From assembly GCA_001464895.1 (NCBI GenBank), contig LNEE01000051.1:62001-126000 (forward strand): DNA of 64,000 bases, written 5' to 3'. How positions within the stretch are numbered: position 1 is the stretch's first letter; every line of letters starts with the position of its first letter. Under the pieces are notes generated by a model that was given only the letters and a program-made list of their open reading frames with translations, was not told where the DNA came from and did not search any database. The translations under genes were made by a program, and so were the position numbers. Shown here in pieces: positions 2,433 through 24,301 of the stretch. This stretch comes from Betaproteobacteria bacterium Ga0077532. GTDB lineage: Bacteria; Pseudomonadota; Gammaproteobacteria; Burkholderiales; Ga0077523.

Positions 2433-4925
2433 TCACCGCGCCTCGCGAGCCACCCACCAGGTCAGCAATTCATCCGAAGGCATCGGTTTCGCGAGCAGGA
2501 ATCCCTGGGCCTCGTCGCATCCGCGCTCACGGAAGAAGGCCAGTTGCGAGGGCGTCTCGATGCCCTCCGCCAGCGTCTTCAACCCCAGCGTCTTCGCCAT
2601 CCCGATGATCGCGGTCGTGATCACGGCATCCTCGGGATCGTCGGTCACGTCGTTCACGAATGACCGGTCGATCTTCAATCGGTCGAGCGGCAGCCGGCGC
2701 AGGTACGCGAGCGACGAGTAGCCCGTCCCGAAATCGTCGACCGAGATCTGGATGCCTCGGGCCTTCAACCGGTCGAGCACGCCGCGCGCCTCCTCGACGT
2801 CCTCCATGATGGCGCTCTCCGTCAGTTCCAGTTCGAGCTGGGAGGCGTCCAGGCCGTGCGTCTCGAGGGCGCTTCGTACCATCTCCTCCAGTCCGCGTTG
2901 GCGGAACTGCACGGCCGAGACGTTGATCGAGACCGGCACGTCCATCGCGGCCTCGCGTCGCCATTCCGCGCACTGCCGGCACACCTCGCGGATGACCCAT
3001 TCCCCGACGGCGAGGATCATGCCGGACTCCTCGGCGATCGGGATGAAACGCTCCGACGGCACGGGCCCGAGATCGGGATCGGTCCAGCGCAGCAGGGCCT
3101 CCAACCCTGCGACACGGTCGGTAGCGAGGTCGATGCGCGGTTGGTAATGCACGCTGAATTCGCCACCGCGCAGCGCGCGTCGCAGGCGGGCCTCGATGTC
3201 GACGCGCTCCAGCACGCGCGAGTTCATCGCCTGCGTGAAGAACTGGAAGTTGTTCCGCCCCACCGCCTTCGCGTGATACATCGCCGCATCCGCGTTCCGC
3301 AGCAGCACGGGGAACTCCGTCCCGTCCTCGGGATACATCGCGACACCGATGGACGGCGTCACCGAGAGGTTCATGCCGTCGATGGAGAACGGGTCCGAGA
3401 TGACTTCGAGAACCTTCATCGCAACCGCCGCAGCGTGATCCGGTTCGTCGAGATCCTGCAGCAGCAGTACGAATTCGTCGCCACCCTGCCGGCTCACGGT
3501 ATCGGCTGCGCGTACGCAACCGGCAAGCCGGCGCGCGACCTGCCGGAGCAACTGGTCGCCGACCTGGTGTCCGAGCGAATCATTGATGATCTTGAACCGG
3601 TCGAGGTCCATGAACAGCACGGCAAGCCGGGACCCCGTGCGCTGGGCCAGCGGCAGCGCCTTGCGCATGCGGTCCTCCAGCAACGCGCGGTTGGGCAGCC
3701 CGGTGAGGAAGTCGTGCTGCGCGAGATGGTGGATGCGCGCCTCCTGAGCCTTCCGCTCGGAGATGTCCTCGAAGACGCCGATGTACTGGGTGATCGTGCC
3801 CGCGTCGTCGCGTACGGCCGTGAGGCGGGTCCAGGCAGGGAACACGAGCTGGTCGCGGCGGCGCAGCCACAGCTCGCCTTCCCATCCGGTCTCGCCGGTC
3901 GCCGCCGCCCACAGACTCGCGAGGAAATTCGCATCGTGACGACCGGACTCCAGGACCCGCGGCGGTTCACCGAGCACCTCCTCGCGACGGAAACCGGTGA
4001 TGGCAGTGAAGGCTCTATTGACCGACGCCACGCGACGGCTCTCATCCATGATCATCACGCCCTCGTGGCTGCTCTCGAACACCTTCGCTGCGAGCCGGAC
4101 CTCGTGTTCCGCCAGCTTCCGGTCGGTGATGTCGAGCATCACGCCGTTGTAGATGATCTCGTCGTCAGCCACGTGAGTGGGGCGCGAAATCCCCTGCCAC
4201 CACTTGATCCGGCCATCGGGATAGAGCAACCGCCCCTCGTAGTTCCAGACACCGCCGGAGCGGTTCGACTCCTCGATCGATTCGACCCAGCGCGCGCGGT
4301 CATCGGGGTGTATGACCGAGCCGACATCCTCCAACTGCGCCTCCGTGAGCCCGAAGATCTCCGACAGGCGCGGACTGATCCACCGAAAGCCCCGCGTGCC
4401 GTCCTTGCGTTCGACCCATTGGTACACCGCACCCGGCAGATTGGCGGCCAGATCGCGAAAGCGCTGCTCGCTCTGGCGGATGCGCGTCTCGGCGCGTGTG
4501 CGCTCGGTGATATCGGTGGAGGCGAATGCCACCGCGGTGATGACACCCTCCGCATCGGGGATCGGAGCGAGCAGGATGTGATACAGCTTTCGCGCGAAGC
4601 GGGGGTCCCCCATTTCCGCTGTGGCGGAGAACGACTCCCCGGCGAGGGCACGCCCGATCAAGCCCTGGAGCCGCTCGGCTTCGTTGGGGAGATGGACGCT
4701 GTGCGCAAAGATGTCGTCGCCGATCGAGACGGGCACGCCGTAGAGGCGTTCGAACTCCCTGCGATAGGCGGCGTTTCCCGCCATAAGGCGACCATCGGCC
4801 CCGATGGCCGCAAGCGGCTGCTCGATGGCCTCGATCAGCGCGGCCTGCACGGCAGCATGGCTTTCCACTTCTCTCGACAGATCCGGAGAGACGCGAGACG
4901 TATCGATCGGTGACTCCTTGCTCAT
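2433..4925 (-). CDS. PAS-domain GGDEF/EAL protein (c-di-GMP turnover)
   Basis: RQGGDEFVLLLQ and GLEALLRW motifs, several PAS repeats with DITERT/DITDRK/DISERK. Start placed at MSKESPIDTSRV. Confidence 0.93.
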   Translation of the reverse strand: MSKESPIDTSRVSPDLSREVESHAAVQAALIEAIEQPLAAIGADGRLMAGNAAYRREFERLYGVPVSIGDDIFAHSVHLPNEAERLQGLIGRALAGESFSATAEMGDPRFARKLYHILLAPIPDAEGVITAVAFASTDITERTRAETRIRQSEQRFRDLAANLPGAVYQWVERKDGTRGFRWISPRLSEIFGLTEAQLEDVGSVIHPDDRARWVESIEESNRSGGVWNYEGRLLYPDGRIKWWQGISRPTHVADDEIIYNGVMLDITDRKLAEHEVRLAAKVFESSHEGVMIMDESRRVASVNRAFTAITGFRREEVLGEPPRVLESGRHDANFLASLWAAATGETGWEGELWLRRRDQLVFPAWTRLTAVRDDAGTITQYIGVFEDISERKAQEARIHHLAQHDFLTGLPNRALLEDRMRKALPLAQRTGSRLAVLFMDLDRFKIINDSLGHQVGDQLLRQVARRLAGCVRAADTVSRQGGDEFVLLLQDLDEPDHAAAVAMKVLEVISDPFSIDGMNLSVTPSIGVAMYPEDGTEFPVLLRNADAAMYHAKAVGRNNFQFFTQAMNSRVLERVDIEARLRRALRGGEFSVHYQPRIDLATDRVAGLEALLRWTDPDLGPVPSERFIPIAEESGMILAVGEWVIREVCRQCAEWRREAAMDVPVSINVSAVQFRQRGLEEMVRSALETHGLDASQLELELTESAIMEDVEEARGVLDRLKARGIQISVDDFGTGYSSLAYLRRLPLDRLKIDRSFVNDVTDDPEDAVITTAIIGMAKTLGLKTLAEGIETPSQLAFFRERGCDEAQGFLLAKPMPSDELLTWWVAREAR

Positions 4926-5135
4926 GACTTCCAGGGATGGCCACCTGTGACCGCGATCCGGACACAACGGTGCTGGTGCCACGCGTGCGCAGCCTGAATT
5001 GTCGCAGCACACCATGCGCCGGCAGAAACGATTTCGGCCTTGACATACCAGCTCGCGGGGCTAGAATCCGCCGTGTTTATTGCGCTGCAGCATTGCGGCG
5101 TGCATTCCTGTCGGTTCTTTCCTGGAGGACGCATC

Positions 5136-9829: not shown

Positions 9830-10171
9830 ATGACCGATATCGCCAGCAGCCTCGTGCGCCAGAAGTGCGCCCCCTGCGAAGGAGGGGTCGACCCGCTCCC
9901 CGCCAACGAAGTCACCACTCTCCTTCGGGGCCTCCATGGGTGGACCCTCGAGGGCAAGGCCATCACCAAGACGTACGGCTTCAGCAACTACTACGAAACC
10001 ATGGCGTTCGTGAACGCGACGGCGTGGGTCTCCCATCGCGAGGACCACCATCCGGACATCCTGGTCGGCTACAAGGAAGCGAAGGTTTCGTACACGACGC
10101 ACGCGATCGGCGGTCTTTCCACCAACGATTTCATCTGCGCGGCGAAGCTCGACGCCCTGTTTGATCTATAG
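9830..10171 (+). CDS. phhB: pterin-4a-carbinolamine dehydratase
   Basis: FSNYYETMAFVNATAWVSHREDHHPDILVGYKEAKVSYTTHAIGGLSTNDFICAAKLD. Confidence 0.93.
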   Translation: MTDIASSLVRQKCAPCEGGVDPLPANEVTTLLRGLHGWTLEGKAITKTYGFSNYYETMAFVNATAWVSHREDHHPDILVGYKEAKVSYTTHAIGGLSTNDFICAAKLDALFDL

Positions 10172-10274
10172 TCGGGTCGTGGGCATAGACGGGGGTCTCC
10201 GACGATTCCGATCCGATCGGAAATTGCGTGCAGCCGCCGTCTTGAGTTGGTGAGGTGATGTCGCGCCGGAGGGC

Positions 10275-10301
10275 TCAAGTTTCCGCCGATGGCGCAGATA
10301 A
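10275..10301 (+). promoter_or_regulatory. sigma-28 (FliA)-like promoter
   Basis: TCAAGTTT-N11-GCAGATAA versus consensus TAAAGTTT-N11-GCCGATAA (14 of 16 positions, exact spacing). Located upstream of the riboswitch. Confidence 0.55.
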
Positions 10302-10367
10302 GGTTCTGAACAACCGGTTCTCCATCGCGGGCGTCCAGCTTTCCTTCCGAGATCCGGTGCGGGTGAG

Positions 10368-10490
10368 CATCCGCACGCAGCTGAAAAAGGCAAACCCGTC
10401 GAAAGACGGGGACGCAAAGCTTCCGGTCTACCGTGCCGAATCGATGGCACCAGGACAGCGGGGCCACCAGGTGTCGGGACGGGTCGGATG
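10368..10490 (+). promoter_or_regulatory. c-di-GMP-I (GEMM-I) riboswitch aptamer
   Basis: AAAAAGGCAAACCCGTCGAAAGACGGGGACGCAAAGCTTCCGGTCTACCGTGCC...GGCACCAGGACAGCGGGGCCACC carries the GGCAAACC / GAAA tetraloop / GGACGCAAAGC / AGGACAGC core. P1 CATCCG(10368-10373)/CGGATG(10485-10490) is perfectly complementary. Confidence 0.9.
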
Positions 10491-10595
10491 GCGTTTCATC
10501 CATCGGATCTCCGGTCGATTTCACCCCGCGTATCCCGGAACATCGGCAGAGCCCTTCAGGGTGCCGGATGGGCCGCGGAGAAGCGAGACAACGAA

Positions 10596-13500
10596 ATGAG
10601 TGCGCAGACCTCGAACGTGATCAGTTTTCCTCCGGTGCGAGAAGGGACCGGCGATGGCCCGGTGCCGGCGAAGTCTCTCCTGGAGGAGTGTCGCGGCCTC
10701 GTGGCCGAGCGCCTGGGGACGGCGCTGGGCGCCGGCTTCGACAAGGTCATCGACGAGCTCTACGAACTCGCCGAGCACGCGCTCGAACGCGACAAGCGCG
10801 ACTTCTACCTCAAGGCCAAGGAAGCGTGGCCGCACCAGCGAGCCCCCGTCGAAGCCACGTTCCGGGAGCAGCTCGCCGGCCGGTTCTCCCCGCCCATCCA
10901 GCAGGACAAGGACGAACAGCCCCAGTTCGCGCTGGTGAAATCGGCGTGGACCGAACTGGCCCTGGTCGCGGACGGTGATCTCGAAGAGGACATGCGATTC
11001 GCCGAGCTTGCCTCGAAGATCCGCAATGGCGCGGACGAGGAACTCGTGGCGCTCGACCAGCGCATGGCCATCCTGCTCGAGCGACCGGAACTGGAAGCCG
11101 CGGACAATCCGCTCGCGCCGAGCGGCATTGCCGAGGCCTTCCGGGAAGCGCTGAAGCAGGTCGAGTTCGACATCGAGATCAAGCGAATCGCGATCCGCCA
11201 TTTCGACGAGCATGTGCGTCCGGAAGCGCTCGCCGTCATCCGCGAGATCAACGAGCGCCTGAAGAAGAACGGCATCCTGCCCGTCATCCGCTACGGTTCC
11301 AGCAAGAAGCCCCAGACCGGTACAGGCCCCGTGGAAGGCCCCCGCGACGACGGGCCGCAGGTCATAGGCAGCGTGACACTCCCGGTCATGTCCGGTGGCT
11401 CCGCTTCGGCCGGCGGCGTTTCCGTTGGCGGGTTGGGCGTGCAGCTTCCTGCAGGCGCGTCGATGGCGGGCCCCGCGGCCACGATGACACTGCAGCCGGG
11501 TATCGGCTTTCCCGCTGGCGTTGGCATGGGTACCGCAGTCGCAGGCGCCCCCGGCGCGGGTCTCGTTGGTGCGGTTCCGGGCAGCGCAGTGGCTGGGAGC
11601 GCCGCCAGCGTCCCTGGCCAGGGCGGGTTCTCCGCGGACACCGGCGGCGCAGGTGATCCTTTCGCAATGCTTCAGCAACTCCTCCTCGCGAACATGGCGG
11701 CGGGTCGCGGCGTTCCGATGCCTGGAGGCACCGGCGGCGCTGGCATGCCGGTAGCGGGCGGTGGTGTTGCGCCGCAGGGCGCGTTTCCCGGCGCACCTGG
11801 CAGCGGTATGCCCGGAGGTGCCGGCATCGGGATGGCTGGTTTCCCCGGCCAACAGGGCACTGGGGCCGGACTCGCAGAGGGGCCCGGTGGCCCCTACGGT
11901 CCCGGCGGCGGCGGGACACCTGGGGCTGGTGCAACGTTTCCCGGCGCGGGACAGCCGGGCGCCGGCGCCACCGGGTACGCCGGGCAAGGTCCGGGCGGTG
12001 GCATCGGGAACGGGGGACTCCCCGGTACGGGTGCTGCGGGCGGTGATTTTCCAGGCTTCGGGGGCACGCCCGGCCCTGGCGGAATGCAAGGGAGTGGCAG
12101 CCCTGGCGGCGCCCCGGGATTCGGTGGCGGAAGCCTGGCCGGCACCAATGGTGCGGGCTTCGGTGCCGGCGGTGGTAATGGTGGAGGTGGCGCGCCCGGT
12201 ATCGCTGGCGCGGGAACTGGAATGCCAGGCGCCGACGGATATGGCACGCCTGGCGCCAATGGATATGGCGGTCCCGGCGTCGGAGGCGCAGGACCAGGCG
12301 GCTCTCAGGGCTCGCCGACCAGCGGTTTCGGAGGTGGTGTTGGGGGAGGCCCCGGAGGCACCGGGGGCGCCGCCAGCGGCGCCCAGGCTGGTGGAACCGT
12401 TTCCGATGGCCAGTTCGGTTCCGACGTCAACGCGACGCAATCGTTGGGTGGCAGCAGGCTGATCGGTTCGCTCACGCGTCTGCAGCAGGGTGATATCGGC
12501 GAGCTTCCGGACGTCTCCCAGGACGTGGGCGACTGGCTCGCGCATCCGCGCCGACGCCTTGAGGATCGCCTGACGGATGCAGATGCACCGAATGTCCTGC
12601 GCGCCCTCAAATCCACTTCGCTCGGCCGCAAGATGGGCCAGATGGACACCGTCACGCTCGACATCGTGTCCATGCTCTTCGACCAGATCTTCGGTGATCC
12701 CCGCATTCCGGCGGCGATGAAGGCGCTGATAGGGCGCCTTCAGATCCCGATGTTGAAGGTGGCAGTGCTCGACAAGACGTTCTTCTCGCGCAAGTCGCAC
12801 CCTGCCCGCCACATGCTCGACACCTTGGGTGAGCTGTCGCTGGGGCTTGGCGACGGTTTCGACACCAGTTCGGCGCTGCACGCCCGGATCGAGACCACGC
12901 TCACCACCCTCGTCGACGAGTTCGAGGAGGACATGGGCGTCTTCGAGCGCATCACCGCCGAGTTCGAGGCGCTGATCCACGAACTCGAGAACGTCGCAGA
13001 CGAGTCGGCGAAGCGGGAGGCAGGACGCATTCATGACCGCGAACGCCTGGAGGTTGCTCGCCTCTTCGCCCAGAACGAACTGCGCAAGCGCCTCGAAGGG
13101 GATCCACTGCCACGGGCTGTGCTGCGATTCCTCTCCACCGAATGGATGAAACTGATGATCCTGGCGTACGCCAAGGGTGGTCGTGAAGGCCGTTCATGGA
13201 CCGGCCTCGTGGAGACGATGGACATCCTCGTCTGGAGCTTGTCGCCGAAGCACACCATCGACGACCGCAAGCGGCTCGTGTCCCTGCTGCCCGGTCTGTT
13301 GAAGCGCCTCGGGAAAGGCATGGATGTGATCGGCACCGACAAGGCCGTGCGCGAACGATTCAATGCCGTGCTGATGCGCTGCCACGCCCGGACCATCACC
13401 GGTGGTACGGCCACGTCGAAGGATCCGCGTGCCGCTGCCCGCGCGGCCGCGCGCGCGGCGGCGTTGAGCGTTCCCGGATCGCCAGCAACCGTACCGACCG

Positions 13501-14636
13501 CCGCGACAGCGGCAACGTCGACCCCATCGGTCGCAACCACACTCGCACCGACAGGCTCCACCGTCCCCGGACGCCCGGAAGCACCGGTGGACGATCCGCT
13601 GGCCGTCGCCTCTCCCACGCTCGCGCCAGTGCCTGCATCGACGGCCGAGGCTGTCGCCCGGATCACGTCGACCACCGTGACCAGTTCGTCGACGTCGACG
13701 CGGTCGGACTCGAAGGTATCGGACACTATTCCCGGTCTGCCGGCCACCACCGAGAAGCACCCCGCGGCGACGCCACCCGCGTCGTCGGTCGACACCACCA
13801 TCGTGCTGTCGGCGAGCAGTGCGCGGACGCCGAGCGCAGCTAGCGGCGCTGGCGCACGGACGCCGCCGGCCCCTTTGCCGGCCGCCGGCGCCTCGAAACC
13901 CGTACTCGATATGCCGCCGACCGTCTCGGCGTCCACGCGCAACGCAACGCCCGTCGCCAAGCCGCCGACACCATCGATCGAGGAAGCACCGATCGACATC
14001 TCGGCACCCCTGGATTTTTCCGTCGGTGGAAGCGACATGGACGTCGAGGAGGTTTCCTTCGACAGTGCCGCTGCCTTTGCGACGACCGCAGCACCGGCAC
14101 CTCCACCGCTGACGACGCCGCAGCGCGCTCCGACCGACGACATGCCAACGCTGTCGGGCAACACGGCGTCTGCCCTCGAGGCCCCGTCCTTCCAGGACGA
14201 GATGACCCTGGAGTCGCCGCCGACCAACTTCCCGACGGTGAAGGTCCGCAACCCGTTCGGGGACGGCGAGATCGAGGTGGAGGAAGTGAATTTCGGCAAC
14301 CTCCCTGGGTTCGCACCGGCCGCCTCACAGGCCAAGGCGCCGCCACCGGACGCCGCCGCGCAGCTCGCCGCTGAACTGAAGGAAGGCGACTGGTTCGAAC
14401 TGCGCCAGGAGGGCAAGGAGGCCACCCAGGCCAGGCTGTCGCTGGTCAGCCCGTACCGCAGCACCTTCGTCTTCAGCAACCGCAAGGGTCAGAAAGTCGC
14501 CGAGTACTCGCTGTACCAGGTCACGAGCTACCTGCGGGCCGGACGTCTCGCCCGGTTGCAGGAGACGCCGCTCTTCGACCGCGCGTTCGGCAACATCGTG
14601 AGTCTGCTCCGCGGTGGTCCCGACGCACCCGCCTGA
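10596..14636 (+). CDS. DUF1631 family protein with long Gly-rich and Ala/Thr/Pro-rich inserts
   Basis: N- and C-terminal regions resemble DUF1631 (MSAQTSNVISFPPV...; KEGDWFELRQEGKEATQARLSLVSPYRSTFVFSNRKGQK...). Start is chosen as the ATG after AGAAGCGAGACAACGAA; the ORF track start at 10488 lies in the riboswitch. Confidence 0.85.
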   Translation: MSAQTSNVISFPPVREGTGDGPVPAKSLLEECRGLVAERLGTALGAGFDKVIDELYELAEHALERDKRDFYLKAKEAWPHQRAPVEATFREQLAGRFSPPIQQDKDEQPQFALVKSAWTELALVADGDLEEDMRFAELASKIRNGADEELVALDQRMAILLERPELEAADNPLAPSGIAEAFREALKQVEFDIEIKRIAIRHFDEHVRPEALAVIREINERLKKNGILPVIRYGSSKKPQTGTGPVEGPRDDGPQVIGSVTLPVMSGGSASAGGVSVGGLGVQLPAGASMAGPAATMTLQPGIGFPAGVGMGTAVAGAPGAGLVGAVPGSAVAGSAASVPGQGGFSADTGGAGDPFAMLQQLLLANMAAGRGVPMPGGTGGAGMPVAGGGVAPQGAFPGAPGSGMPGGAGIGMAGFPGQQGTGAGLAEGPGGPYGPGGGGTPGAGATFPGAGQPGAGATGYAGQGPGGGIGNGGLPGTGAAGGDFPGFGGTPGPGGMQGSGSPGGAPGFGGGSLAGTNGAGFGAGGGNGGGGAPGIAGAGTGMPGADGYGTPGANGYGGPGVGGAGPGGSQGSPTSGFGGGVGGGPGGTGGAASGAQAGGTVSDGQFGSDVNATQSLGGSRLIGSLTRLQQGDIGELPDVSQDVGDWLAHPRRRLEDRLTDADAPNVLRALKSTSLGRKMGQMDTVTLDIVSMLFDQIFGDPRIPAAMKALIGRLQIPMLKVAVLDKTFFSRKSHPARHMLDTLGELSLGLGDGFDTSSALHARIETTLTTLVDEFEEDMGVFERITAEFEALIHELENVADESAKREAGRIHDRERLEVARLFAQNELRKRLEGDPLPRAVLRFLSTEWMKLMILAYAKGGREGRSWTGLVETMDILVWSLSPKHTIDDRKRLVSLLPGLLKRLGKGMDVIGTDKAVRERFNAVLMRCHARTITGGTATSKDPRAAARAAARAAALSVPGSPATVPTAATAATSTPSVATTLAPTGSTVPGRPEAPVDDPLAVASPTLAPVPASTAEAVARITSTTVTSSSTSTRSDSKVSDTIPGLPATTEKHPAATPPASSVDTTIVLSASSARTPSAASGAGARTPPAPLPAAGASKPVLDMPPTVSASTRNATPVAKPPTPSIEEAPIDISAPLDFSVGGSDMDVEEVSFDSAAAFATTAAPAPPPLTTPQRAPTDDMPTLSGNTASALEAPSFQDEMTLESPPTNFPTVKVRNPFGDGEIEVEEVNFGNLPGFAPAASQAKAPPPDAAAQLAAELKEGDWFELRQEGKEATQARLSLVSPYRSTFVFSNRKGQKVAEYSLYQVTSYLRAGRLARLQETPLFDRAFGNIVSLLRGGPDAPA

Positions 14637-20979: not shown

Positions 20980-21079
20980 CGGGCCCCATGACATTCGGGC
21001 GTCAACACCTTTGGCGGACTCGGTTCGCACGCGGCTGCGGGCTATACTCCGGCCACGCGCCTGCCCCGATGCCAACGTG

Positions 21080-24000
21080 ATGCCGCCCCAATTCTCCAAC
21101 CCAGTCATCCACGACGCATCGCCCCCGGCGACGGGCTCACCTTCCCCCACGCCGCTGCTGGCGGATCAGGTGCGTCTGCTCTTCGCCAATTCGCCAGTCG
21201 CGCAGTACATCAATCTCGCCGTTGCAGCGCTCGTCGTCGCGGCACTTCTTCCGCATGCCCCTCCCGGCCGTCTCGTGGCCTGGATCGTGTCGATGTACCT
21301 CATCGTGGGCTACCGGCTCGCGCTGCGCTCGCTGTACGTGCGCCGGCCCGAAGTGCTGTCGCACGAAGCCTGGCTCGTGTGGTTCCGTCTGGGGGCCGGT
21401 GCCACCGGCGGCGGCTGGGGTGCCCTCTGGTTCCTGCTGCCCGCGAACGCCAGCCCTGCCACCGAACTGATGGTCGCGATGGTTCTTGCCGGCATGATCG
21501 GCGCCGGCGTGCCCATCCTCTCGGCGGTCTTCGCCGCTTTCCGGGACTTCGCCGTGCTGGCGCTCGTGCCGACCGCCGTGGCGCTGTTCGCGCACGGCGA
21601 TCGCATGCACCTGATCGCCGGCGTGATGGCCCTGCTCTATCTCGCTGGCGTGCTGAGCAGCGCGCAACGTTTCCGCGGCGTGCTCTTCGAGAGCCTGCAG
21701 CTGCGCTCCGAACAGAGCGACCTGGTGCGCTCGCTGAGCGCCGCCAACGCCGAGCTGCGCAGCATGCGCGACACCCTGGAGCGCCGGGTCGACGAACGCA
21801 CCAATGCACTCCGGCTGCAACTCGCTGAACGCGAACGTGCCGAGGCTGCCCTGCGATCGAACGAGGACATGTTCCGGCTCATCACCGACAACGTCTCCGA
21901 CATGATCGCCGTGTGGGACCGCAACGGCAGCCAGCTCTACGGCAGCCGGTCCCTGACGCGAGCCCTCGGCAGGCGGAACATCACGGGGTCCCGTCCCGGG
22001 TTCGGAGAAGTCCACCCCGAGGATCTCGACCGCCTCCGGAAGGCGCTGCGGAACACGTTCGACACCGGCCAGGGTTGCCACACGGAGCTGCGCCTGCTGG
22101 ACGACGGCATCCGCGTCATCGATTGCGCGGTCGAGCCCGTCAGCGCCGGCGGCGCGGAACCCGACAAGGTCGTCGTCGTGGCGCGCGACGTGACACAGCG
22201 CCGGCAGGAGGAGGCCATCGTCCGGGAGGCACGGGAACGCCTCGCGCTCGCGATCGAAGCCACGGGGCAGATCCTGTTCGACGTGGACTGCAGCACGCAG
22301 AGCGTCTACCTCGATGCCCACTGGTCGGCCTGGCTGGGTGGCCCTTCGCGCGAGACCCGCGCGACCTTCGACGAGCTGCTGCCACTCGTGCCCGAGGAAG
22401 ACCACGCCCAGATGCGCCACCGTTACCTCGCCACGCTGAAAGGCGACGTCGGCGACTACTCGATGCAGCACCGCATCCGCATGCCGAACGGCACGCAGCG
22501 CTGGATCGTCTCCCGCGCCAAGGTGGTCGAGCGCGACGCACGCGGTCGCGCCCTGCGCCTGATCGGAACGAATGTCGACATCACCGAGCAGCGGCTGGCA
22601 GACCAGCGGCTACGACTCATGGGACGCGCGATCGACGACATGGCCGAGGGCGTCGTGATCCTCGATGCCGACTGGCGGATCCTGTGGGTGAACCCGGCGT
22701 TCTGCCGGATCACCGGCTATCCGTCGGACGAGGCAGTGGGCAAGGTGAGCCAGGTGCTCCGGTTCTCCGACACCGCAGATCTGGGCCAGGGCCTCGTTGC
22801 GAGCGTGCAGGCGCGCGGGCACTGGGAGGGTCGCCTTCTGGACCGTCGGAAGTCGGGCGGGACGTATCCCGTGTGGGTGAGCGCCAGTGCGATGCGCGAA
22901 CCCGACGGTCGAATCGGAAGCGTCGTGATCGTCTTCACCGACATCTCCCGCCAGGAGCGAGACGCCGAGCGGATGCGCTACCTCGCCTTCCACGACAGCC
23001 TCACGGACCTGCCGAACCGTTCGCTCTTCTTCCAGAAGGCCGGAGACCTCATCCGCCGCGCCGAGCGCCACGGACAGCGACTGGCCCTCCTGTTCGTCGA
23101 TCTCGACCGGTTCAAGTCCGTCAACGACTCGCTCGGACACGAGGCCGGCGACCAGGTGCTGATCGAGGCGGCCACACGCCTTCGTTCCGCGTTGCGCGAG
23201 TTCGACGTGGTCGCCCGGCTGGGTGGGGACGAGTTCGCGATCCTGCTGGACGACATCGCGGACGACGACACGGCCGGATCGGTCTCCGCCAAGCTGCTCG
23301 ATTCGCTCGGAGCGCCGATCATGGTCGGCGAGCATGCACTGCACGTGCAGGCGAGCATCGGCATCAGCCGCTTTCCGGGCGATGGTGCGACGGCCGATCT
23401 GCTCCTCCGTCAGGCCGACGCCGCGATGTACCTCGCGAAACAGGAAGGCCGGAACCGCTTCCGCTTCTTCTCGCCCGAGATCACCGCCGATGTCCTGCAG
23501 CGCCTCGACCTCGCGTCGGATCTCCGGCTTGCCGTGGAGCGCGAGCAACTCGTCCTGCACTACCAGCCGGCGGTGGACGCCACCGATGGGCGCATCCTCG
23601 GGGTGGAAGCGCTGCTGCGCTGGCAGCATCCCCAGCGCGGCCTGATCGGCCCCAACGACTTCATCCACGTCGCGGAGGAAACCGGCTCCATCGACGCGAT
23701 CGGACACTGGGTGCTCGAGACAGCGTGCCGCCAGTTGCACGCCTGGCAGTCGATGGGCCTGCCGCGCCTCACCATGAAGGTGAATCTCTCGCCGCTGCAG
23801 TTCCGCCAGCCGACCCTGCTCCAGGAGGTCAAGCGCGCGATGGAGAGCAACCGGCTCGAGCCAGGGACGCTCGAGATCGAGATCACCGAGAGCGCGGCGA
23901 TGCAGGAGCCCGAGCGCTCGGAGCGCGTGCTGACCGAGATGCGCAACATCGGCATCCGCGTCTCGCTGGACGACTTCGGGACGGGCCACAGTTCGCTCGC

Positions 24001-24301
24001 GCAGTTGTCGCGGTTCCCGATCCAGGGCCTGAAGATCGACCGCACACTCGTGGCCGCGCTGCCGGGCGATCGCAAGAACGCGGTGATCGCATCCACGGTG
24101 GCATCGCTCTGCCGGAATCTCGGGCTCGATCTCGTCGGGGAAGGTGTCGAACTGCCCTCGCAGGCGGAGTTCCTTCTGAACCAGGGATGTCGCCAGATGC
24201 AGGGCTTCCTGTTCAGCAAGCCCGTGGATGCCGCGACCGTGGAGCCCATGCTCTACCGCCAGCACCACGACGCCTGGACGGTCGCGACCACGCTGCAGTG
24301 A
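21080..24301 (+). CDS. membrane PAS-GGDEF-EAL protein (c-di-GMP turnover)
   Basis: N-terminal TM region, PAS domains, ARLGGDEFAILLDD, GVEALLRWQHP, DDFGTGHSSLAQL. Start MPPQFSNPV. Confidence 0.93.
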   Translation: MPPQFSNPVIHDASPPATGSPSPTPLLADQVRLLFANSPVAQYINLAVAALVVAALLPHAPPGRLVAWIVSMYLIVGYRLALRSLYVRRPEVLSHEAWLVWFRLGAGATGGGWGALWFLLPANASPATELMVAMVLAGMIGAGVPILSAVFAAFRDFAVLALVPTAVALFAHGDRMHLIAGVMALLYLAGVLSSAQRFRGVLFESLQLRSEQSDLVRSLSAANAELRSMRDTLERRVDERTNALRLQLAERERAEAALRSNEDMFRLITDNVSDMIAVWDRNGSQLYGSRSLTRALGRRNITGSRPGFGEVHPEDLDRLRKALRNTFDTGQGCHTELRLLDDGIRVIDCAVEPVSAGGAEPDKVVVVARDVTQRRQEEAIVREARERLALAIEATGQILFDVDCSTQSVYLDAHWSAWLGGPSRETRATFDELLPLVPEEDHAQMRHRYLATLKGDVGDYSMQHRIRMPNGTQRWIVSRAKVVERDARGRALRLIGTNVDITEQRLADQRLRLMGRAIDDMAEGVVILDADWRILWVNPAFCRITGYPSDEAVGKVSQVLRFSDTADLGQGLVASVQARGHWEGRLLDRRKSGGTYPVWVSASAMREPDGRIGSVVIVFTDISRQERDAERMRYLAFHDSLTDLPNRSLFFQKAGDLIRRAERHGQRLALLFVDLDRFKSVNDSLGHEAGDQVLIEAATRLRSALREFDVVARLGGDEFAILLDDIADDDTAGSVSAKLLDSLGAPIMVGEHALHVQASIGISRFPGDGATADLLLRQADAAMYLAKQEGRNRFRFFSPEITADVLQRLDLASDLRLAVEREQLVLHYQPAVDATDGRILGVEALLRWQHPQRGLIGPNDFIHVAEETGSIDAIGHWVLETACRQLHAWQSMGLPRLTMKVNLSPLQFRQPTLLQEVKRAMESNRLEPGTLEIEITESAAMQEPERSERVLTEMRNIGIRVSLDDFGTGHSSLAQLSRFPIQGLKIDRTLVAALPGDRKNAVIASTVASLCRNLGLDLVGEGVELPSQAEFLLNQGCRQMQGFLFSKPVDAATVEPMLYRQHHDAWTVATTLQ

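Follow-up and report, generated by a model that had tools for sequence, protein, structure and literature searches.

A predicted sigma-28 promoter upstream of a c-di-GMP riboswitch and a DUF1631 gene

Is a gene of the DUF1631 family placed under the joint control of the late flagellar sigma factor FliA (sigma-28) and of c-di-GMP? The question is raised by a FliA-like sequence and a c-di-GMP riboswitch aptamer that stand one behind the other in the 64,000-nucleotide stretch of DNA analysed here (hereafter the window), where two opposite lifestyle signals, the late-flagellar sigma factor and the sessile-signal c-di-GMP, appear to meet at DUF1631. The gene itself (10596–14636, + strand; PF07793, E 1.6e-161) encodes 1346 aa according to the list of open reading frames; its start was picked by likeness to orthologues, and an in-frame ATG at 10488 would give a longer protein. 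Upstream lies a pterin-4a-carbinolamine dehydratase gene ending at 10171, which leaves an intergenic stretch of 424 nt. The aptamer, of the c-di-GMP-I-GGC type (RF03167; 10380–10472, + strand), has a weak P1; it scores 69.7 bits against a gathering score of 59, and a search of the 4.9 Mb genome turned up no second c-di-GMP-I aptamer. The window aptamer is separated from the start codon by about 125 nt of remaining leader (10473–10595, + strand), the putative expression platform, which carries a candidate Shine-Dalgarno sequence, GGAGAAG, at 10577–10583. Two long open reading frames of the window (2433–5015, − strand, and 21011–24301, + strand), both within 12 kb of the riboswitch, encode proteins resembling PAS/GGDEF/EAL c-di-GMP enzymes when their translations are read by eye.

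Positions 10275–10301 of the + strand read TCAAGTTT CCGCCGATGGC GCAGATAA. Re-reading of the sequence bears out the preliminary description, which had reported a match to the FliA consensus TAAAGTTT-N11-GCCGATAA at 14 of 16 positions with exact spacing: the predicted −35 box (10275–10282, + strand) and −10 box (10294–10301, + strand) each agree with their consensus octamer at seven of eight positions, the −10 box departing from it at the third base, and the spacer is exactly 11 bases. Given the usual spacing between −10 and +1, transcription would be expected to start at 10307–10311 (+ strand). The distance to the aptamer, previously put at about 67 bp, was roughly right, being 78 nt from the −10 box and ~70 nt from the expected start. 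Within the window the site is the sole match to the FliA pattern at up to three mismatches, and 100 dinucleotide shuffles yielded none. A pattern search of the whole genome with TMAAGTTT-N11-GCCGATAA likewise returned it as the top match, alone at up to one mismatch. However, at up to three mismatches the genome contains 18 matches as compared to eight with a reversed-pattern control, and the match by itself is thus suggestive to moderately strong, short of conclusive. An origin of the site as coding sequence was rejected: the 114-aa open reading frame at 10255–10599 has no family match, and the bases between the boxes are not conserved.

Conservation within the genus provides much stronger support. 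DUF1631 is present in 11 of the 12 genus genomes, and nine of these 11 retain TMAAGTTT-N11-[GA]CAGATA[AT] upstream at the corresponding place. Genome G001 encodes FliA and has only a decayed match at DUF1631, and in G004, an incomplete genome, neither the site nor a FliA scoring above the cut-off was found. When seven lineages of the genus were compared, near-identical ones excluded, mean pairwise identity amounted to 93% for the −35 box and 87% for the −10 box as compared to 33% for the spacer and 29–30% for the flanks. The footprint thus matches the two boxes. Of the nine site-bearing genomes, six also possess the aptamer, 73–95 nt downstream of the site, whereas in the other three (G002, G003 and G005) no aptamer was found at DUF1631 even at a loose threshold. 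Since these three keep the site without the aptamer, the idea that the site belongs to the riboswitch RNA can be ruled out. The other c-di-GMP-I aptamers of the genus precede other genes, and upstream of the five that are readable (in G001, G002, G007, G008 and G009) no FliA site better than five mismatches was found, indicating that the pairing of promoter and riboswitch goes with DUF1631. As a side observation, aptamers L166 (G002), L168 (G001) and L163–L165 (G008, G007 and G009) stand before genes with signal-peptide-like starts, and two of the genes behind these other aptamers resemble subtilisin-like proteases by eye.

The source genome encodes FliA (C23:20178–20840; 273.5 bits against a cut-off of 189.6) as well as flagellin. 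The best FliA-like site 5' of fliC, TCAAGATTTC...GCCGTAAA (TCAAGATTT...GCCGTAAA), is located about 98 nt from the ATG and is repeated in position and form across the genus, while the cheV promoter of the relatives has the form TAAGGTTT...GCCGATAT. The DUF1631 site resembles these fliC and cheV promoters except at the third base of the −10 box, which is A in every DUF1631 copy of the genus and C in the flagellar promoters. A stringent FliA pattern produced 21 matches in the 12 genus genomes and none with the reversed control; seven of the 21 are DUF1631 sites, six belong to fliC and three are of the cheV type, two of which could be traced directly into the CheW-receiver (CheV) gene. FliA-like sites were also seen 18–140 nt 5' of two related genes for PilY1-type pilus adhesin-like proteins with an N-terminal VVDDSGSM motif, namely TAAAGATCTCGACTTAGGTGCCGATAA at L007 (G000:C19:26834–26860) and TCAAGATTCAAGCAATCCTGCCGTTAA at L128 (G002:C21:22348–22374); a fragment of such a gene gave no Pfam match. 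The FliA regulon of the genus may also extend to surface-sensing pili.

The preliminary description had also proposed to look at other DUF1631 homologues, and FliA sites were indeed found in four families, that is f1 (which comprises the genus of the window), f39, f43 and f50. Of 250 genomes sampled from the order, 106 contain DUF1631, and 36 DUF1631 leaders with a c-di-GMP-I aptamer were examined. With up to three mismatches allowed, a FliA site lies in the 150-nt stretch before the aptamer in 15 of the 36, which, the leaders being related, are not 15 independent events and are fairly counted as three to four lineages; 200 column-permuted FliA patterns gave a mean of 0.14 and a maximum of four. 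At up to one mismatch, eight of the 36 leaders were positive as compared to none with the permuted patterns. The 15 comprise all six leaders of f1, all seven of f50, and one each of f39 (G049) and f43 (G220). The second aptamer-bearing leader of f43 (G164) reads AAAGTTT-N12-GCCGATAG, its spacer one base off, so that a site is present in both when this leader is counted. In f39 the site occurs in all four genomes, with −10 boxes GCAGATAT, GCTGATAT and ACTGATAA behind an 11-base spacer and a weaker site with a 10-base spacer in G256. Some pattern matches in other families were left out because they fell inside the aptamer (CAAAGTTTCCGGTCTA...). At locus L232 of f39 (G092:C48:3051–5907), a DUF1631 gene with in-frame stops and split between frames retains the FliA-like site TAAAGTTT-N11-ACTGATAA, and no aptamer was found there.

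Seven families (f11, f14, f15, f23, f29, f32 and f34) have the aptamer in the leader and no FliA site. Presence of FliA is clearly not sufficient for having the site, as most genomes of the riboswitch-bearing families without it still encode FliA; among the sampled genomes of the order that lack FliA (G021, G238, G127, G120, G033 and G075), the site was found in none of six. In the DUF1631 protein tree, the genes with a FliA site fall into three regions (f1 with f39, f43, and f50) and call for a minimum of five or six label changes. This scattered placement suggests either repeated gain of the promoter or an ancient promoter with frequent losses.

Taken together, conservation across the genus and three further families, the presence of FliA in genomes with the site and the likeness to the fliC and cheV promoters lend good support to the sigma-28 reading put forward earlier. 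As judged from sequence, 10275–10301 is very probably a genuine FliA-dependent promoter that starts the DUF1631 mRNA under the control of a c-di-GMP leader; we infer both its recognition by FliA and its use as the main promoter. It is conceivable, though unlikely, that the site is real and plays a minor role, FliA merely boosting a gene that is transcribed mainly by read-through or from a constitutive promoter that escaped detection. Indeed, DUF1631 genes with riboswitch and without FliA site in other families indicate that other promoters can serve this gene. However, neither a sigma-70-like nor any other promoter-like site was found between 9800 and 10800, the upstream gene is followed by the 424-nt intergenic stretch, and the boxes are strongly conserved.

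It is improbable that the boxes serve another sigma factor, or form a dual promoter on which sigma-70 acts too, and here the third base of the −10 box comes into play. Some copies read GATATAAC, which is near a sigma-70 −10 box, the genus uniformly has CAGATA rather than CCGATA, and TATAAC overlaps the −10 box in G002, G007 and G008. On the other hand, both the −35 octamer and the 11-base spacer are of the FliA type, f50 and f43 have CCGAT/CCGTA −10 boxes in the same position, G000 and G003 are among the copies without TATAAC, and the search for a sigma-70-like site was negative, as stated above. The third base is A or T in f39, apart from the C of the weaker site in G256, and C in f50. In E. 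coli, the ynjH promoter, with ACTGATAA as −10 box, is FliA-dependent (PMC4183435), and a third base other than C is thus tolerated there. Where TATAAC is present, the A may possibly go along with some overlap with sigma-70, or the A may make for a weaker promoter.

There is little to recommend the idea that the FliA-driven leader, instead of regulating DUF1631 in cis, acts as a sink for c-di-GMP, as proposed for merRNA of Bdellovibrio. In the attack phase, which is dominated by FliA, Bdellovibrio does produce massive amounts of a c-di-GMP riboswitch RNA (PMC3627812), but in the window DUF1631 and its ribosome-binding site come after the aptamer, in some relatives the promoter and the gene are present and the aptamer is missing, and in f50 the Shine-Dalgarno sequence covaries with an upstream complementary run (CTTTTCC/GGAAAAG, CTTCCC/GGGGAAG). 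Finally, a chance likeness to the FliA consensus, for which the genome-wide count obtained with the reversed control would speak inasmuch as lone weak matches mean little, is hardly credible and indeed untenable on the sequence comparisons, that is the phylogenetic footprint, the recurrence in four families and the permuted-pattern controls.

In the FliA-dependent scenario, E-sigma28 would start the DUF1631 transcript near 10307–10311, ~70 nt upstream of the aptamer, once the flagellum is past its late checkpoint and FliA is free, and output would then be set by c-di-GMP via the leader. We infer that this second step most likely acts at translation: no intrinsic terminator was found on the + strand of the leader, which makes control at translation probable, and the covariation in f50 of Shine-Dalgarno and anti-Shine-Dalgarno sequences supports it. 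No clear common structure of the expression platform was found in the leaders of the window's genus. As to the sign of the switch, folding the leader with the aptamer free or closed gave inconsistent Shine-Dalgarno accessibility. We lean slightly, as a guess rather than from evidence, towards c-di-GMP as an OFF signal that confines DUF1631 to motile cells. If so, both inputs would say 'motile' and DUF1631 would be limited to swimming cells; if c-di-GMP were an ON signal, DUF1631 would mark flagellated cells with rising c-di-GMP and so act as a true coincidence detector. Thus, of the AND/NOT logic proposed in the preliminary description, the two inputs are supported, represented by FliA site and aptamer, while the NOT is one of two possible directions of the c-di-GMP effect; moreover, three genus members keep the promoter without the riboswitch.

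FliA control of c-di-GMP-related genes is already known, as exemplified by the c-di-GMP effector gene ycgR and by bifA. The former belongs to the FliA targets of E. coli (PMC4183435), and the latter is partly under FliA control in Pseudomonas putida, according to an excerpt of the source (PMC5300878). The class III sigma-28 promoters of E. coli ycgR and ynjH have the same −35 and −10 octamers and 11-base spacer (PMC4183435), but here the transcript also includes a c-di-GMP riboswitch, and DUF1631 is no known flagellar gene. Similar to c-di-GMP-I (GEMM-I) riboswitches such as Vc1 and Vc2 of Vibrio (RF01051/RF03167), the window aptamer scores above the gathering threshold, whereas it differs from them in promoter type and in a leader with weak P1 and no clear terminator. 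Bdellovibrio merRNA is likewise a c-di-GMP riboswitch RNA of a FliA-governed phase; unlike the DUF1631 leader, it is non-coding and is not marked with a FliA promoter in Table 2 of that study (PMC3627812). A sigma factor of the FliA/WhiG family is also coupled to c-di-GMP in the sigma-WhiG/RsiG switch, in which, as described in an excerpt of the source, c-di-GMP acts on the anti-sigma factor protein (PMC8325347), whereas at DUF1631 its target would be the transcript. The open-licence literature searched yielded no description of a c-di-GMP riboswitch that stands before a protein gene and is transcribed from a FliA promoter.

On balance, we slightly favour the view that DUF1631 is a new and widespread part of the FliA regulon that is controlled by c-di-GMP and acts at the motile-to-sessile transition, with promoter and riboswitch kept or repeatedly built in several betaproteobacterial families as a two-input checkpoint (flagellum finished, c-di-GMP low or rising). 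A large function-orphan family would thereby be tied to both arms of the choice between motility and biofilm, and its predicted membership in the FliA regulon together with c-di-GMP responsiveness makes its role directly testable.

With regard to the product, the structure modelled for the C-terminal domain is a small beta barrel (mean pLDDT 79) with weak Tudor/SH3-like matches (best E 8.5e-3). The C-terminal tail was rejected as a PilZ c-di-GMP receptor, PilZ being absent among the 50 structure matches listed. The NCBIfam assignment NF058594 ('PacR') for 10596–14636 was likewise dismissed, as the match, which covers the central part (E 1e-53), is far below the model cut-off; a literature search found no paper on PacR. 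The protein consists of conserved N-terminal, central and C-terminal parts with long linkers in between, which shorter homologues of other families lack. These low-complexity linkers are Gly-rich (residues about 250–610; window 11340–12410) and Ala/Thr/Pro-rich (about 945–1200; 13425–14200), respectively.
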